Positions 16,084 through 40,523 of a stretch of 64,000 nt of DNA are shown here, in pieces. A program made the position numbers and the translations under genes. The notes under the pieces are model-generated. The model searched no databases, was not told where the DNA came from, and saw only the letters and a program-made list of their open reading frames with translations. Source of the DNA: a virus. The stretch covers positions 124,001-188,000 of IMG/VR virus record IMGVR_UViG_3300046005_000547. The stretch is one strand, 5' to 3'. Within the stretch, counting starts at the first letter, position 1; every line of letters starts with the position of its first letter.

Positions 16084-16202
16084 TTGCTTTCTCCTAAGTT
16101 GAAATTATTATATGTTAAATTGATAAAATATAAAAGTCGAGGAAGATACTATAAGAATATTAAAAACCATTAATAACTCTAGCTGAAACATCGACATAGT
16201 CT

Positions 16203-16231
16203 AGTATACGCTTGTTTTATCGATTTCGAAA
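16203..16231 (-). promoter_or_regulatory. Cassette A promoter
   Basis: TTTCGA at 16226-16231, 17-nt spacer, TATACT at 16203-16208, then AGACTATGTCGATG. It faces the 14902-16083 operon. Confidence 0.7.
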
Positions 16232-16479
16232 GGAGTTTCTCGATGATTGTAATTTACACATTCGATTAACATTTCATCTTAAAGGCTCTTTCGATACATG
16301 GTATCTATTGATTCGATGTTATCGTTTAATTTAACAGTCCATATTGTTGATTTAAGATGGATTGATTATATCTTGTAGAGTTGATTGACATAATACAGGA
16401 AGATTCCACTAGGATGGATTATTGGACAAATAATGGATGTTAACAATTCAACATAGAACTATTATAATGTAAATTCCAA

Positions 16480-16660
16480 ACAATAAAAATCCCGAAAGAA
16501 CTTTTGATTCAATCGGGATCTGAATGGCAGAGATTTTATGTTGAATAATTGATTAAATTAATACTCGATAAAGACATATTATTGTTCTTGTAGTAATATA
16601 AAAGACATTAAAGAATACTAAAACGTATTAATAGAACTAACTCAAACCGTCGACATAGTC
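16480..16660 (-). ncRNA. Predicted cassette B transcript
   Basis: The promoter here is TTGACT (16685-16690), N17, TATACT (16662-16667), a canonical sigma70 version. The transcript would run to the stem ATCCCGA/TCGGGAT at 16489-16519, whose minus strand continues TTTTTATTG. The micro-frame at the 5' end is broken (MSTV then stop), so a non-coding or decayed product is likely. Confidence 0.5.
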
Positions 16661-16949
16661 TAGTATACGCTCGTTTTATCGAAAAGTCAAGAGAAAACTT
16701 TAACTTGTAATAATCATATTCGATGTCTAAGATTATCTTTCGATACGTTTAAGACTCTTTCGATGTTTGATTATAGTTGATTCGATACCCTCACTTAATT
16801 TAACATGGAAATTTGTTGATTTAAGATGGATTGGTTATATCCTGTAGAGTTGAATGATGTATATTGGAAAGATTCCACTAGGATGGATTATTGGACAAAT
16901 AACGGTTGTTATGTGAATGATTTGGAATAGGTATATTGTAAATTTTAAA

Positions 16950-17105
16950 CAATAAAAATCCCACTCAGAATAAATCTGGTGGGATCTGATACGCAGAGAT
17001 TTTAATGTTGAATTATTGTATAGAATATACTCGATAAAGAGTCTTGTAGTAATATAGAAGAACACTTAATGAAAGTAAAGGTAATAACTGAAACGTCGAC
17101 ATAGT
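16950..17105 (-). ncRNA. Predicted cassette C transcript
   Basis: Promoter TTTCGA (17131-17136), N17, TATAGT (17108-17113). Stop signal at stem CCCAC-CAGA/TCTG-GTGGG, 16958-16985, with a T tail on minus. A 29-codon frame starts at 17102 almost on the predicted first transcribed base (MSTFQLLPLLSLSVLLYYYK ...). Whether it is translated is unknown. Confidence 0.5.
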
Positions 17106-17394
17106 CTACTATACTACATTTTCTAGGATTTCGAAAGGAGTATTCTTATCCTGTAATAATCATATTCGATATGTCGTACATCGAAAGGATTATCTTAAGA
17201 TGTCCTCGATACATGATGATTACAGTTTCGATGTTCTTGTTTAATATAGACATCCATATTTGGATTTTAAGATGGATTGATTATATGACATAGAGTTGAT
17301 TGGTATATATTGTTTAAACTCCATTAGGATGGAATAACGAGCAAATAATGATTGTTATCAAACCAATATGGAATTGATATATTGTAAATTGAAT

Positions 17395-17565
17395 CCAATA
17401 AAAATCCTGATGGAGTGGTTGGTTCTCATCAGGATTTGGAAGTAGAGATTTTAATGTTGAATTATAGTAATATAATAATGTCGATAAAGAATCTTGTAGT
17501 AATATAGAAGACATTAAAGAATATAAAAATGACCTTAAAGGCAATAACTGAAACGTCGACATAGT
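17395..17565 (-). ncRNA. Predicted cassette D transcript
   Basis: Promoter TTTCGA (17591-17596), N17, TATACT (17568-17573). Terminator AAATCCTGATG/CATCAGGATTT at 17402-17437, followed by TTTATTGG on minus. An open frame from ATG 17562 (MSTFQLLPLRSF ...) runs through the terminator, so only its first part could be made. Confidence 0.5.
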
Positions 17566-17829
17566 CTAGTATACCCGAGTTTCTAACATTTCGAAAGGAG
17601 TAATTAGACTCTGTAATAATCATATTCGATACCATATACATCGAAATACTATCTTAAGATGTCCTCGATACATGATTATAATTGATTCGATGTTAACATT
17701 AAATCCTGTCCAGAAATTTGCCAATATAAGATGGATTCAATATATCCTGTAGAGTTTCTTGTTTATTATACAAAGATTCCATTAACATGGAGTATTAACC
17801 AAACAATGACGATATTATACAATGGATAC

Positions 17830-17837
17830 TATAAATA
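17830..17837 (+). promoter_or_regulatory. Late promoter (TATAAATA)
   Basis: Exact T4 late consensus TATAAATA at 17830-17837, 25 bases before the start of the Ntn-hydrolase gene. AGAGGAG follows as ribosome site. Confidence 0.75.
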
Positions 17838-17861
17838 AATTAAAATTAGAGGAGAAAAATA

Positions 17862-34341: not shown

Positions 34342-35463
34342 ATGACCAGCAATAATATCTATATCGATAAAATAATCGAATTATGTTCAGATAATGAACA
34401 AACAGCAGAGTATATCTCCATCGTATCCAATGCTCGAATTCGATCATCTAATAAAAAAGAAGCAAAGGTGATTTTGGGATACACCGAAGAACACCATATA
34501 TTACCCAAATCGTTTAAGATGGGTGGAGAAACAGATAAATTAAATTACGCTTATCTATCTGCAAGAGAACATTATCGCGTCCATCAATTGTTAATAGAAA
34601 TGGGATTGAAACGTAATTTACACGAGAAGATGATTCATGCGTTTTGGTTGTTAAGTGTGTTGGACAAACACAAGTCCATATCCGAAGAAGAATATCAAGA
34701 GTTGAAGATTTTAAGAAGCAAATATCATAATTGGAAAGATCCCGAATGTATTCAAAAATGTAGAGATACGTATTTCGAGAAAACTGGATTCACCCATAAT
34801 ATGAAAGATCCAGAATGTAAAGAAAAAAGTAGAGATACACATTTTGAGAAAACTGGATATACTCATTATATGAAAGATCCCGAATGTATCCAAAAGTGTA
34901 AAGATACTCTTTTTGAAAGAACTGGATACACACATCATATGAAAGATCCAGAATGTATCCAAAAGGGTAAAGATACCAATTTTGAGAAAACTGGATACGA
35001 CAATCCTATGAAAAATCCAGAATGTAAAGAAAAGAATAAACGAGCCTTGGAAATAAAATATGCTAGACCATTAGTCTTACAGATTCTACAAGACGTAGAA
35101 AAATATAATATTATTAATCCAAGAAAAATTATGGGAATCAATGACCCTAATTGGAGACACGTCGATGATGAAAAACTGGAAGAAGGATCTATCAAGTTCT
35201 ATAAACATTTAGATGAACGTAAAATCAAGATAAAGGAATACGAATGTAGGATAAACGAGATTAGTTCCACATTTAAATCAATAGATGATAAACGATCCTT
35301 GATTTCATATATCAAAGAAATCAAGGATTTTTATAATATAACAAATTATACTGGTATAATGGAAGTGGATAGAAAGTGGAAAAGGGGTTTAAATGTGCTA
35401 GAATTACAAATTGCATTAGAAAAATTATTGAAACATACCGTTGATAAATTCTATATGAATTAG
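34342..35463 (+). CDS. HNH homing endonuclease
   Basis: 373 residues. YTEEHHILPKSFKMGG is the HNH-like His-His-Asn core. AYLSAREHYRVHQLL continues the metal finger. Residues ~131-235 hold five 23-residue repeats (MKDPECIQK ... FEKTGYTH) that resemble DNA-contacting modules of phage endonucleases. It is an invasive gene. It ends with a TAG directly in frame with a phoH fragment, suggesting it entered or replaced part of phoH. Confidence 0.8.
   Translation: MTSNNIYIDKIIELCSDNEQTAEYISIVSNARIRSSNKKEAKVILGYTEEHHILPKSFKMGGETDKLNYAYLSAREHYRVHQLLIEMGLKRNLHEKMIHAFWLLSVLDKHKSISEEEYQELKILRSKYHNWKDPECIQKCRDTYFEKTGFTHNMKDPECKEKSRDTHFEKTGYTHYMKDPECIQKCKDTLFERTGYTHHMKDPECIQKGKDTNFEKTGYDNPMKNPECKEKNKRALEIKYARPLVLQILQDVEKYNIINPRKIMGINDPNWRHVDDEKLEEGSIKFYKHLDERKIKIKEYECRINEISSTFKSIDDKRSLISYIKEIKDFYNITNYTGIMEVDRKWKRGLNVLELQIALEKLLKHTVDKFYMN
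34732..35035 (+). repeat. 69-bp coding repeats in endonuclease
   Basis: Four full copies and one diverged copy of a 69-bp unit, each starting near an AAAGATCC(C/A)GAATG and encoding KDPEC ... EKTGYTH. Confidence 0.8.
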
Positions 35464-35895
35464 ATTCACGTATATGGATTCCTTCCAGGTGAATTACATG
35501 AAAAGATTGAACCCTATTATCAACCAATCAAAGACATATTATACGCTCGATTAGGTAAGAGTCAAACAGAGTATTATATTAAGAGGAACATTATTGAATT
35601 CAGACCATTAGAATTCATGAGGGGGTCGACGTTTGATGATTGTATTATAGTTGCGGATGAATTTCAGAATACAACCAAAGAACAATGTTATATGTTCCTT
35701 TCGAGAATTGGTAATAACAGTAAGGTTATTATCACGGGAGATACCAAACAAACTGATTTAAAAGGTCAATCCGGTTTGGCTGATGCTGTATATAGATTAC
35801 GAGGAGTGAGGAGAATTGGTGTCACTGAATTTACAATTGATGATTGCGTTAGATCTGGTATCTGTAAAGATATATTGATTGCATATTCTGATTAA
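35464..35895 (+). pseudogene. phoH: PhoH C-terminal remnant
   Basis: Continuing in frame after the endonuclease TAG, 143 codons read IHVYGFLPGELHEKIEPYYQ ... EFMRGSTFDDCIIVADEFQN ... SRIGNNSKVIITGDTKQTDL. These are the middle and C-terminal parts of PhoH-type ATPases (Walker B ADEFQ, sensor TGD). The Walker A half is absent. The first ATG in frame is at 35617. Not expected to be an active ATPase. Confidence 0.8.
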
Positions 35896-36402: not shown

Positions 36403-36888
36403 TTATTTCTTCTTGAAGATAATGTAATCACCGTTTGTATGTGTTTCTACGAATCCTAATTTGCATGCTAATGTTATAGACGAACCGTTACATTTCCTGG
36501 ATGTCCAAACCTTAATGACATCAGGATATGATGAGAAGAATTGTTGACAAGCAAGATATCCTATATTTTTGTTCCTGTAATTTTCATCAACAAAAATGGC
36601 ACCAACTTTTATACATGGGATAGATTCTTTATAGAATAATTGGTCTATTCCATTTGGATTTGTATATCTTGGGAAACTCATACCAACTAATTTATCATCC
36701 ATGTAAATCAACATTATATCCAGTAGATTATCGGTGACGGATATATGATGTAAAATTTGTTTAAGATGTTTCTTGATTCTCCGAGTAGACTTAGATTTTG
36801 AACATCCAACATATCTGGCTTGTCTCATCTTGGTGTATATGTAAAGTAATTCATCTGAGTAGATGTTTGTGAATTGTATTTGTACCAT
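36403..36888 (-). CDS. GNAT-family N-acetyltransferase
   Basis: 161 residues. VGAIFVDENYRNKNIGYLAC is the acetyl-CoA pyrophosphate-binding motif A (R/Q-x-x-G-x-G/A type, here YRNKNIG), then TSRKCNGSSITLACKLGFVE as motif B. Acceptor unknown (protein or small molecule). Its gene is divergent from the structured RNA. Confidence 0.75.
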   Translation of the reverse strand: MVQIQFTNIYSDELLYIYTKMRQARYVGCSKSKSTRRIKKHLKQILHHISVTDNLLDIMLIYMDDKLVGMSFPRYTNPNGIDQLFYKESIPCIKVGAIFVDENYRNKNIGYLACQQFFSSYPDVIKVWTSRKCNGSSITLACKLGFVETHTNGDYIIFKKK

Positions 36889-36950
36889 TCCTTTGTAATC
36901 TCATGAAATTTATATTGTATATGTATTATTTACAATCATCGAGAAAACTC

Positions 36951-36979
36951 TTGACTTTTTAATTAAAATAGTTTATACT
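36951..36979 (+). promoter_or_regulatory. Consensus-like sigma70 promoter of the structured RNA
   Basis: TTGACT (36951-36956), exactly 17 bases, TATACT (36974-36979), then AGAT. Predicted start near 36986. Confidence 0.8.
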
Positions 36980-36985
36980 AGATAA

Positions 36986-37618
36986 GAACCAAAACTTTTA
37001 ACTAAATAAGATTGAACAATTAAAAACTTTGAAACGCACGAAACTCCATATAAAACGAACAAAAATATAAATAAATTTAAAAAATATAAAATTGAATACG
37101 TAGAAACATCATAAAGTAAAAATCTAGTTCCAAAGCTGAATAGAAGTCCAACGAAAGAGGTCCGTCGAATAGTTGGCACACATTGAAAGGTTCCTCCCAA
37201 ATAATTGTAAACAATTAGATAACTATTGACTTATAGGTAAGTATAGCGATGTCTACGGGGTATGCAAACGTCAAATTGTGTGATAAAAGTCTTTATTTTT
37301 AAAGACAGGATGTGGGTGACTATAAGTTTGACCACACCATTGTTGAAGTCGCTAGAATTGGCTCAACAATGCCCCGTTTGAATCGCGAGATTGTAGACAG
37401 TCGTAAAAGGAAACCGGCAAACCCTCCTTACTTTTTCAGAAGTTGACTAATTCTAGAGTGCCTTTCGGAAGAAGCACACTTTACTCTGGTAGGGTAAGAA
37501 GTGCCTTTCGGGTTGCACTCGATGCAACATCTATATACAAAAAGCGACAGATAATCTGCGTAAGCGCAGCGTCGTAGATTATTAAACGAGCGAAGCGAGT
37601 TTATGGCTTTTGCTTTTT
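36986..37618 (+). ncRNA. Large structured non-coding RNA (ROOL/GOLLD-like class by size and context)
   Basis: About 630 bases without a credible ORF, richer in G+C than the flanks. After an A-rich 5' part, many helices can be drawn. ACGGGG (37255-37260) pairs with CCCCGT (37372-37377) and can be extended by GTCTAC/GTAGAC (37251-37256/37393-37398). This encloses GTCTTTA/TAAAGAC near 37290-37309, TGTGG/CCACA (37311-37337) and CATTGTTGA/TCAACAATG (37338-37371). Further hairpins follow at 37454-37530. A branched 3' element closed by AAAAGC/GCTTTT (37540-37611) ends in T5. Giant phage RNAs such as ROOL and GOLLD have this size; class assignment is inference. Confidence 0.7.
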
Positions 37619-37752
37619 ACTAATACTCTTCCTCGATCTTCTCCGACCTCATCCGAAATTCATTAGAATCATCTTATGTTAAATGTATCGATAAAGACAT
37701 CTTAAAATCAATATACAGATTAATCTTTAAATGACACTTAACAAAAATCAAA

Positions 37753-37795
37753 AGCAATGGTTTAGATGAACAAAAAAATGTTCATCTAAACTGCT
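37753..37795. other. Perfect 13-bp hairpin with A6 loop
   Basis: GTTTAGATGAACA (37760-37772), loop A6, TGTTCATCTAAAC (37779-37791). AGCA/TGCT (37753-37756/37792-37795) extends the stem past a 3-base bulge. It stands alone in a 260-base gap between the structured RNA and the cassette array. No T tract follows. Confidence 0.75.
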
Positions 37796-37881
37796 TCGCA
37801 AGGTTTCTGTTAACATTATTATATTAAGATGACCTTTAAATGGAGAATAGAATATACATTAAAGATATTCTATATCAAATA

Positions 37882-37916
37882 AAAATCCCACTCAGAAATT
37901 TATCTGGTGGGATTTT
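37882..37916. terminator. Stem-loop terminator of cassette G transcript
   Basis: AAAATCCCAC-CAGA/TCTG-GTGGGATTTT. The minus strand continues TTATTTG. Confidence 0.85.
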
Positions 37917-38400
37917 AAGATTAATATACATTAGAATGATTCTAGTTAAATTTAACATTGATATTTGTTGTTTTAAGACAGATTCATTACATCCTGTAGA
38001 GTTTCTTGTCATATTATACAAAGATTCAATTAAGATGGATTATTGGACAAATAATGGATGTATTATAATACATTTAAAACATCCTATATGAATTTAAACA
38101 TATTAAATGAATCTCTATCGCATTCGATACATTAAATGTGTCTTAAGATGTTCTTGTTAAATTTAACATGGAAATTTGTTGATTTAAGATAGATTTATAA
38201 TATGACATAGAGTTGATTGACATATATTGTTGAAATTCCACTAGAGTGGATTATTGGACAAATTATGATGGAATTAAATGATGTTTAGAATCATATTAAA
38301 TGAAATTAATGATTTATATTATGTCTATAAAGACTCTTGAAGTAATATAATAAACTCTTAAAAACCATTAATAACTCTACCTGAAACATCGACATAGTCT

Positions 38401-38429
38401 AGTATACTGTCTTTTCTACCATTTCGAAA
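38401..38429 (-). promoter_or_regulatory. Cassette G promoter
   Basis: TTTCGA (38424-38429), N17, TATACT (38401-38406), then AGACTATGTCGATG. A 29-codon frame (MSMFQVELLMVFKSLLYYFK ...) starts at 38395 essentially without leader. The transcript would run ~510 bases to 37882. Confidence 0.65.
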
Positions 38430-38694
38430 GGAGTATTCTTATACTGTAATATACAGACTCGATATCTAGTTTATCGAATGACATCTTAAGACTCTTTTCG
38501 ATACATGATTATTACTCATTCGATGTTAATGTTTAATTCTATACAGTTATTTGTTGATTTAAGGTGGATTCATTATAACCTGTAGAGTTGATTGATGTAT
38601 ATTGGAAAGATTCCATTAAGATGGATTAACGAACAAATAATGGATGTTATCAAAGTTGTATACAATTCATAATCTGTAAATTTAAAACAATAAA

Positions 38695-38726
38695 AATCCC
38701 ACTCAGAAATTCATCTGGTGGGATTT
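38695..38726. terminator. Stem-loop terminator of cassette H
   Basis: AATCCCAC-CAGA/TCTG-GTGGGATT with T-rich minus tail, just after the 44-residue gene. Confidence 0.85.
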
Positions 38727-38730
38727 TAAA

Positions 38731-38865
38731 TTATACTCGACTCCAATAAAATGTATATCGATAATCAGAAACATCTGATGAATCATAAAGATGCCCTCTT
38801 CCGATATACCCCATTACGATTCTATCGTCGAATAATCCATAATATTGATTCTTAAACATATTCAT
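38731..38865 (-). CDS. Small unknown protein carried by cassette H (44 aa)
   Basis: MNMFKNQYYGLFDDRIVMGY ... TFYWSRV, ending five bases before the terminator. It is the only cassette in the two arrays with a convincing ordinary small gene between promoter and stem-loop. Ribosome site is weak. Function unknown. Confidence 0.5.
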   Translation of the reverse strand: MNMFKNQYYGLFDDRIVMGYIGRGHLYDSSDVSDYRYTFYWSRV

Positions 38866-38985
38866 AATAGATCTATAGAGAATGATTACTATTATTTATT
38901 CTGTAGTAATATATTAATGTCTATAAAGAATCTAAGTTAAAAACTAATAACAATAGATACATTAACTGAAACGTCGACATAGTCT

Positions 38986-39014
38986 AGCATATCCGAGTTT
39001 CTGACATTTCGAAA
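38986..39014 (-). promoter_or_regulatory. Cassette H promoter
   Basis: TTTCGA (39009-39014), N17, TATGCT (38986-38991), then AGACTATGTCGACG. Confidence 0.6.
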
Positions 39015-39276
39015 GGAGTAATTAGACTCTGTAATAATCATATTCGATATGTCTTACATCGAAAGACTATCTTAAGATGTTCTCGATACATGATTACAGT
39101 TTCGATGTTATTGTTTATTATAGACATCCATATTTGGATTTTAAGATGGATTAGAATTATGATGTAGAGTTGATTGACATATTACAAGAAGATTCCATTA
39201 AAATGGATTATTGGACAAATAAAAGATGAATTAAGAATGGTTTGAAATGTTAATTCTGTAAATTTTATCCAATAAA

Positions 39277-39308
39277 AAGCCGAATGTCCTTTTCAAGACA
39301 TTCGGCTT
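39277..39308. terminator. Terminator after recQ-like gene
   Basis: AAGCCGAATGTC (39277-39288) pairs with GACATTCGGCTT (39297-39308). The minus strand continues TTTATTGG. Confidence 0.9.
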
Positions 39309-39311
39309 CGA

Positions 39312-40523
39312 TTATCTACAATTGTCGCATTTACCACATTTCTTAAAATTAGGATGTTCATCGAAATACTTCAACAATGACACTCTTCTACATGTATATT
39401 GTTCAGCAAAACTAACCATGGCATCTAATTTATTATTTTCAATACGTTTTTGATCTGGATGGGAATTGGTTTCATTTATCCATCTTCTTAACATAGTAAC
39501 ATCTGATTGAGACCATAATAATAAAGAACTCGCACTTTGTGAACTCCTTCCACCCCTTCCCGAACTCTGATAATATTCTTCAATGGTTTTTGGTAATCCA
39601 ATGTTAATAACAAAATCGATATAAGGGTGGTCAATACCAACTCCAAATGATGCCAATGTAGCAACAATCACTTTATATTGACCGCCGATGAACTTACGTT
39701 GAATATCATTACGTTCTTCTGGTTTAAATCCAGCGTGATATGCAACTGAATTGATTCCATTATCTTGTAGATGTTGATTAATTTCTTCCGTGGATTTTCG
39801 TGACATACAATAAACGATACCATTACTTTGTCTATGATTACGTTTGATGTAATCCAATGTTTGTTTCAATTCAGAACCTTTGGATTTAGTTTTCACTTCA
39901 TAATAGATATTTGGTCTATCAAAACTTGTTACAAATACTTTATCATTTTCCATTTTCAACGTTCTTAAGATATCTGCTTTTACAGCCGAATCCGCCGTTG
40001 CTGTCATTCCCAAAATGGGAACATCAGGGAAATGTTCAGGAATTACATGTAATTTCATATAATCTTCTCTGAATGAATGACCAAATTGTGAAATAGAATG
40101 AACTTCATCAATAGTGAACAATGAAATCTTTAATGTCTTAAGAAAATTGATTGTCCCTCGTTTATTGAGGCGTTCTGGTGAGATATACAATAAATCAATT
40201 TCATTATTTTGTAATGCATATTCAATACGTTCGATTTCATTTGATTTCAATGATGAATTTAAGAACTCTGCTCTGACTCCGCGTTTCTTAAGATTATCCA
40301 CTTGGTCTTGCATCAATGATATTAAAGGGGAAATAACAATACCAACTCCATCCATAACAATAGAGGGGATCTGGAAGCATAAACTTTTGCCAGCACCGGT
40401 TGGGAATAATACTAGAGCATTCTTACCAGATACGACGTGTTCAATGACTTCTCTTTGTAATTGTCTGAAATTCAAGTAACCAAAGTTTTCTTTTAGAGTA
40501 ACTAATAATGGATCTGTTGACAT
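39312..40523 (-). CDS. RecQ-family DNA helicase
   Basis: 403 residues. Motif 0 NFRQLQREVI, Walker A FPTGAGKS (~40), ISPLISLMQDQ, DEVH box TIDEVHSISQFGHSFR, TATAD, motif V VATLASFGVGID and motif VI QSSGRGGRSSQ. The C-terminal CRRVSLLKYFDE ... CGKCDNC keeps the RecQ zinc ligands, but winged-helix and HRDC domains are missing, so it is a short RecQ. A 3'-5' helicase probably used in recombination-dependent replication. Unusual for a T4-like phage. Confidence 0.9.
   Translation of the reverse strand: MSTDPLLVTLKENFGYLNFRQLQREVIEHVVSGKNALVLFPTGAGKSLCFQIPSIVMDGVGIVISPLISLMQDQVDNLKKRGVRAEFLNSSLKSNEIERIEYALQNNEIDLLYISPERLNKRGTINFLKTLKISLFTIDEVHSISQFGHSFREDYMKLHVIPEHFPDVPILGMTATADSAVKADILRTLKMENDKVFVTSFDRPNIYYEVKTKSKGSELKQTLDYIKRNHRQSNGIVYCMSRKSTEEINQHLQDNGINSVAYHAGFKPEERNDIQRKFIGGQYKVIVATLASFGVGIDHPYIDFVINIGLPKTIEEYYQSSGRGGRSSQSASSLLLWSQSDVTMLRRWINETNSHPDQKRIENNKLDAMVSFAEQYTCRRVSLLKYFDEHPNFKKCGKCDNCR

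Follow-up and report, generated by a model that had tools for sequence, protein, structure and literature searches.

A candidate autonomous structured noncoding RNA gene behind a cassette-family promoter in a T4-like jumbo phage

To our knowledge large structured RNAs of phages are few and their roles unknown; ROOL and GOLLD form RNA-only cages. ROOL (RF03087), described by a 574-position model, is a large noncoding RNA that folds in a complex manner and occurs in phages and prophages, GOLLD is a giant noncoding RNA of phages and prophages whose 3′ part is structured and whose 5′ part is less constrained, the known giant RNA classes assemble into multimeric nanocages, and ROOL, GOLLD and OLE all have Rfam models (PMC12286853). 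A further system that bears on the present locus is that of the promoter-terminator cassettes of T4-like phages (PeSLs; Arbiol 2010, Comeau 2014, as cited in PMC4503421), which are presented as promoter plus stem-loop units arrayed at shuffled loci and as mediators of the shuffling of T4-like genomes.

The locus that we describe, 36951-37618, lies in a stretch of 64,000 nucleotides (the window, G000:C1:124001-188000) within a virus record of 234,735 bp that stems from a metagenome, and all positions are those of the window unless a genome is named. Judged from its baseplate and tail proteins (phrog_230, 350, 430) and its Gp23 capsid protein, the virus, G000, is a T4-like jumbo phage. Its nearest usable relative is G001 (249,362 bp), with a capsid protein 88% and a helicase, encoded next to the locus in G000, 86% identical to those of G000; G003 (149 kb) hardly differs from G000 across the shared parts, and the candidate RNA locus is outside its coverage. 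The promoter and the surroundings of the locus comprise the following features.

36403-36888, minus strand: divergent neighbouring gene, 161 aa, with a weak match to an acetyltransferase-like PHROG.
36929-36982, plus strand: extended promoter of the candidate RNA, with an upstream box TTTACAATCATCGAGAAAACTC, -35 TTGACT, 17 nt, -10 TATACT and AGA.
37760-37791, minus strand: opposite-strand terminator hairpin that parts the candidate RNA from a convergent promoter array.
37878-39306, minus strand: convergent cassette array of the same promoter family, with -10 boxes near 38406 and 38991 and hairpins at 37878-37918 and 38689-38729.
39312-40523: RecQ-type helicase gene, the neighbour on the far side of the convergent array.
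37878-39306 and 16084-17861 in the window, and 41.5-43.9, 72.5-74, 104-106, 140-142, 162-163, 196 and 228-230 kb in G000: cassette array loci.

The predicted promoter is the firmest evidence for the candidate RNA gene. A first-pass annotation had proposed that the RNA has its own promoter, TTGACT-N17-TATACT, and the two hexamers are indeed exact on the plus strand (36951-36956 and 36974-36979, with a 17-nt spacer). Matches to the hexamers only are common, 76 having been found in 8 kb versus 51.6 expected. A PWM was built from 48 G000 and G001 cassette promoters with the candidate promoter left out; the candidate scores 14.9 bits on it as compared with a maximum of -6.5 in the shuffled genome, so that the promoter call stands on more than two hexamers, the extended 54-nt family motif lying far beyond chance. 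G000 has this motif at 24 further sites, mostly in tandem noncoding promoter-terminator cassette arrays, where the units share the form ..TTACAATCATCGAGAAACTC-(TTGACTTTTCGA or CTTTCGAAAT)-..-TATACTAGACTATGTCGAC; the candidate is an isolated, divergent copy of the family and the sole match in G000 without the cassette body CTATGTCGAC behind it.

The arrays consist of dispersed tandem noncoding units of ~460 nt each at eight or so loci of G000, and likewise in G001 and G003, with 24 promoters counted in G000 and about 25 in G001. Many units end in a terminator-like hairpin and the last unit often, in several arrays, lies directly upstream of small genes, which together with the sigma-70-like form of the promoter suggests that the candidate promoter is an early one, probably read by the host RNA polymerase. 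The units look similar to PeSL cassettes, but those described here are larger and tandem, and none has a match among INPHARED phages. One array unit contains a small ORF (38731-38865, minus strand; 44 aa, MNMFKNQYYGLFDDRIVMGYIGRGHLYDSSDVSDYRYTFYWSRV) with a 42-aa counterpart in a G001 array near 137.2 kb, suggesting that some cassettes carry tiny genes. When the candidate is itself examined as a PeSL-type cassette the recurrent family promoter is present, at the score given above, and a short body with a terminator stem-loop is absent, the sequence 3′ of the promoter being unrelated to the cassette body; there is no second copy of this downstream sequence in G000. Relative to PeSL units (PMC4503421) the candidate shares the use of a cassette-family promoter but differs in that a 640-nt folded sequence of raised G+C replaces the cassette body, and in an orientation opposite to that of the local array. 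Such an arrangement could also be read as a cis-regulatory or insulator unit, in which what counts would be that transcription from 36982 opposes the divergent gene at 36403-36888 and the convergent array, and not the RNA that is made. The promoter is only 60 nt from the start of the divergent gene, two cassette promoters are in convergent orientation and in G001 the orthologue of 36403-36888 is driven directly by cassettes, as such a unit might lead one to expect; however, the region already has insulation in the minus-strand terminators 37760-37791 and 37878-37918, and 400 nt of folded sequence with raised G+C would be left unaccounted for, and we consider this reading improbable.

Downstream of the promoter the candidate RNA is predicted to comprise the following elements.

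36980-37129, plus strand: unstructured, A-rich leader at the 5′ end of the predicted transcript, GC 0.207, AT skew 0.39.
37145-37448, plus strand: predicted multibranch domain with a putative closing helix, 37145-37159/37431-37448 (probability 0.64-0.76).
37246-37386, plus strand: long-range helix, 37246-37250/37382-37386 and 37255-37263/37369-37377, pair probabilities 0.87-0.99.
37289-37306, 37308-37338 and 37341-37368, plus strand: three hairpins inside the long-range helix, from the predicted fold.
37389-37402 and 37407-37429, plus strand: two small hairpins, probabilities 0.82 and 0.68.
37456-37520, plus strand: long hairpin GAGUGC...GCACUC that holds both GTGCCTTTCGG copies, pair probabilities 0.93-0.99.
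37539-37618, plus strand: branched, T-rich 3′ end and probable non-canonical terminator, AAAAAGC...GCTTTTT closing hairpins at 37550-37583 and about 37583-37603.

Promoter and 3′ end together give a predicted transcript of ~640 nt, with a start predicted to within a few bases. An own terminator with a branched, T-tailed end had been part of the original proposal; a branched and T-rich end is found, but it is not canonical, no plus-strand terminator being called in 37539-37618 by consensus scan. Protein coding is not suggested by any frame, in keeping with the initial view that there is no credible ORF: none exceeds 45 aa on the plus or 75 aa on the minus strand of the candidate region, and the codon-usage score is negative for every one of them, as compared with +0.12 to +0.44 for 30-codon pieces of phage genes. 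The raised G+C that had been noted is borne out as well, with a value of 0.435 for 37301-37500 that ranks among the highest 1.1% of genome windows and a peak (0.46) that is the highest among noncoding regions of at least 450 nt in G000 and G003, the others reaching at most 0.38. The leader, 36980-37129, is of a very different kind, falling in the bottom 0.5% of genome windows in G+C and in the top 0.4% in A-over-T skew, and it folds less than its shuffles (z +1.8). The first plus-strand ATG is at 37249, and an ATG-free stretch from 36980 to 37248 has P of about 0.01 by dinucleotide shuffling. In RNA complementarity to the rest of the phage genome 13-mers are slightly above shuffles, and the 14-mers are mostly low-complexity leader sequence.

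A stretch of 20.7% GC directly behind a promoter, with a RecQ-type helicase gene as neighbour past the array, also brings to mind a replication origin or R-loop primer, in which promoter, AT-rich unwinding element and structured preprimer RNA would act together (cf. T4 ori, ColE1 RNA II). Against this there is no GC-skew inflection at G000 161 kb, the predicted transcript is A-rich and not G-rich, and the element is missing from G001, which is unlikely for an essential origin; we regard an origin as improbable.

That the region is structured, as the first-pass annotation had claimed, is upheld by local folding, which beats shuffles and does so more strongly on the plus strand. For 37246-37402 the z value is -5.05 on the plus strand (0/200 shuffles as good) and -3.30 on the minus strand, for 37450-37535 it is -3.63 (0/200 shuffles) and -2.48, respectively, and for 37440-37620 it is -3.02 on the plus versus -0.58 on the minus strand. 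Over the full 651 nt the advantage over shuffles shrinks to a mild one (z -1.9), owing to a leader with unusually little structure. The MFE of 37250-37400, -48.7, is below that of every 150-nt window on both strands of the first 91 kb of G000, where the lowest scanned value, beside tRNA-Met, is -47.7. Approximately 1% of the 150-nt windows in the same scan reach z <= -4, so folding by itself is no proof of an RNA gene. The long-range stem over three hairpins that had been described at the outset is predicted with high probability, but with pairs slightly shifted from those first given.

Given its phage location, ~640 nt size and multibranched predicted fold, the candidate could be viewed as belonging, in divergent form, to the ROOL, GOLLD or OLE classes, and a fit to the ROOL/GOLLD type had in fact been put forward, with membership left unconfirmed. 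Searches do not bear this out. No Rfam model matches anywhere in the window at gathering thresholds, and with E up to 10 in a 721-base region ROOL, GOLLD and OLE are absent, Methylobacterium-1 being the sole match; ROOL (gathering score 99.1 bits) is unmatched at E up to 10 in G000 and six related phage records, searched without a positive control. A tRNA island, the typical ROOL/GOLLD setting, is absent, the 234,735-bp record having one tRNA-Met, ~124 kb off. The likeness to ROOL is therefore that of another large, phage-borne RNA, with no covariance-model match and no nearby tRNA island, and the likeness to GOLLD that of a structured 3′ part preceded by a 5′ part that is less constrained, again with no covariance-model match and no tRNA island, and at ~640 nt as opposed to the typical 800 nt or more. 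Membership is strongly disfavoured, to the point of being highly improbable; the candidate may work like ROOL/GOLLD-type RNAs, yet is no member of these classes by the tests made.

Two other known RNA types were considered and set aside. Methylobacterium-1 RNA (RF01712) is the best sub-threshold match, covering three consecutive hairpins at 37286-37381 with 24.3 bits and E 0.061 in the 721-base search; this falls short of the gathering score of 40 bits, neighbouring terminators give chance matches with a similar E, and the model has zero matches across 26 phage records. A self-splicing intron (group I/II) has no Rfam match, the group II intron model RF01998 is absent from seven phage records and the candidate sits between genes, not within one.

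Searches for homologues gave no relative of the candidate RNA. A DNA search of INPHARED phages and plasmids (PLSDB) returned only chance pieces of 30-36 nt, 39 T4-like contigs collected via the capsid protein have no DNA match, and in G001 the RNA is absent both by DNA search and by covariance model. Pattern seeds run over IMG/VR gave only chance matches whose flanks are without similarity, and over GTDB genomes 57 matches with unrelated flanks, many in one protein-coding context (VEKETGKP motif). With single-sequence covariance models of two domains the window itself is the sole accepted match; the first domain model also gave three 14.5-bit matches elsewhere, all within or beside the capsid genes of other contigs, which we put down to chance. 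G001 143279-143965, considered as a G+C-rich noncoding analogue, turned out to be a tail-type coding region of foreign composition. The surrounding 143-144 kb of G001 (L002 15498-19726) is a tail-fibre-like gene block whose G+C of 0.46, well above the rest of the phage, suggests recent acquisition.

Comparison with G001 does place the locus in its genomic history. The G001 orthologue of the 36403-36888 gene is directly behind three cassettes, with the candidate RNA missing, and the orthologue of the helicase gene 39312-40523 is next to another array, ~57 kb from the first. Missing at both flank sites and elsewhere in G001, the RNA would be an accessory element, located at a rearrangement point associated with arrays, which fits the role in genome shuffling ascribed to PeSLs (PMC4503421). 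Near the locus there is a homing-endonuclease-like ORF (34342-35463, phrog_655), several relatives of which are present in G001, around 80, 84 and 187 kb and in some cases as fragments. Right after the stop of the ORF at 34342-35463 a PhoH gene starts without its N-terminal part (35473-35895, plus strand; profile 65-204 of 205); the G001 copy of PhoH is likewise truncated and has an in-frame stop in addition.

A rearrangement point is also the basis of the chief rival explanation, that the sequence is a non-functional spacer left by recombination between arrays, in which a stray promoter cassette adjoins DNA that is foreign or has decayed, any transcript being functionless. The ~57 kb that separate the two flanks in G001, each beside cassette arrays, the shuffling mediated by cassettes of the PeSL kind in T4-like phages (PMC4503421) and the absence of a homologue from every collection searched (by seed-based scans for IMG/VR and GTDB) are all compatible with such a spacer. 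However, the three-hairpin core and the 65-nt hairpin each beat 200/200 shuffles, the composition of the leader, the avoidance of ATG and the rise in G+C all follow the boundaries predicted for the transcript, and other spacers this long in these jumbo phages are AT-rich promoter arrays. We consider a spacer unlikely, although less so than the other alternatives discussed above.

On balance we favor, with moderate confidence, the reading of 36951-37618 as a real, autonomous structured noncoding RNA gene of a T4-like jumbo phage. The promoter-family match, lack of coding potential and strand-biased folding argue for an RNA gene, as do the low MFE, raised G+C, ATG-free and A-skewed leader and separating terminator hairpins; the lack of a homologue, a minus-strand core z of -3.3, the non-canonical terminator and absence from G001 argue against it, and the orphan status of the prediction limits its weight. 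In the proposed mechanism a copy of the recurrent sigma-70-like cassette promoter would drive early transcription of about 640 nt, ending at the predicted terminator, and the product would consist of a ~150-nt A-rich single-stranded leader and a compact folded 3′ part made up, in order, of the helix with three hairpins, the 65-nt hairpin and the branched T-rich end. The folded RNA would most likely act in trans during infection, with the leader as the putative site at which a protein or RNA partner binds. The gene would be accessory, the orthologous site in G001 holding ordinary promoter cassettes.

Beyond this, we suggest only tentatively that the RNA represents a hitherto unseen class of large, structured RNAs of phages, unrelated to ROOL, GOLLD and OLE, and that it is expressed early from a mobile cassette promoter and acts on the host in trans, for instance through sequestration of an RNA-binding protein or as a multimeric RNA particle. 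If this possibility, which we hold to be doubtful at present, were true, it would mean that in T4-like jumbo phages such RNAs are acquired as accessory cargo via promoter cassettes.
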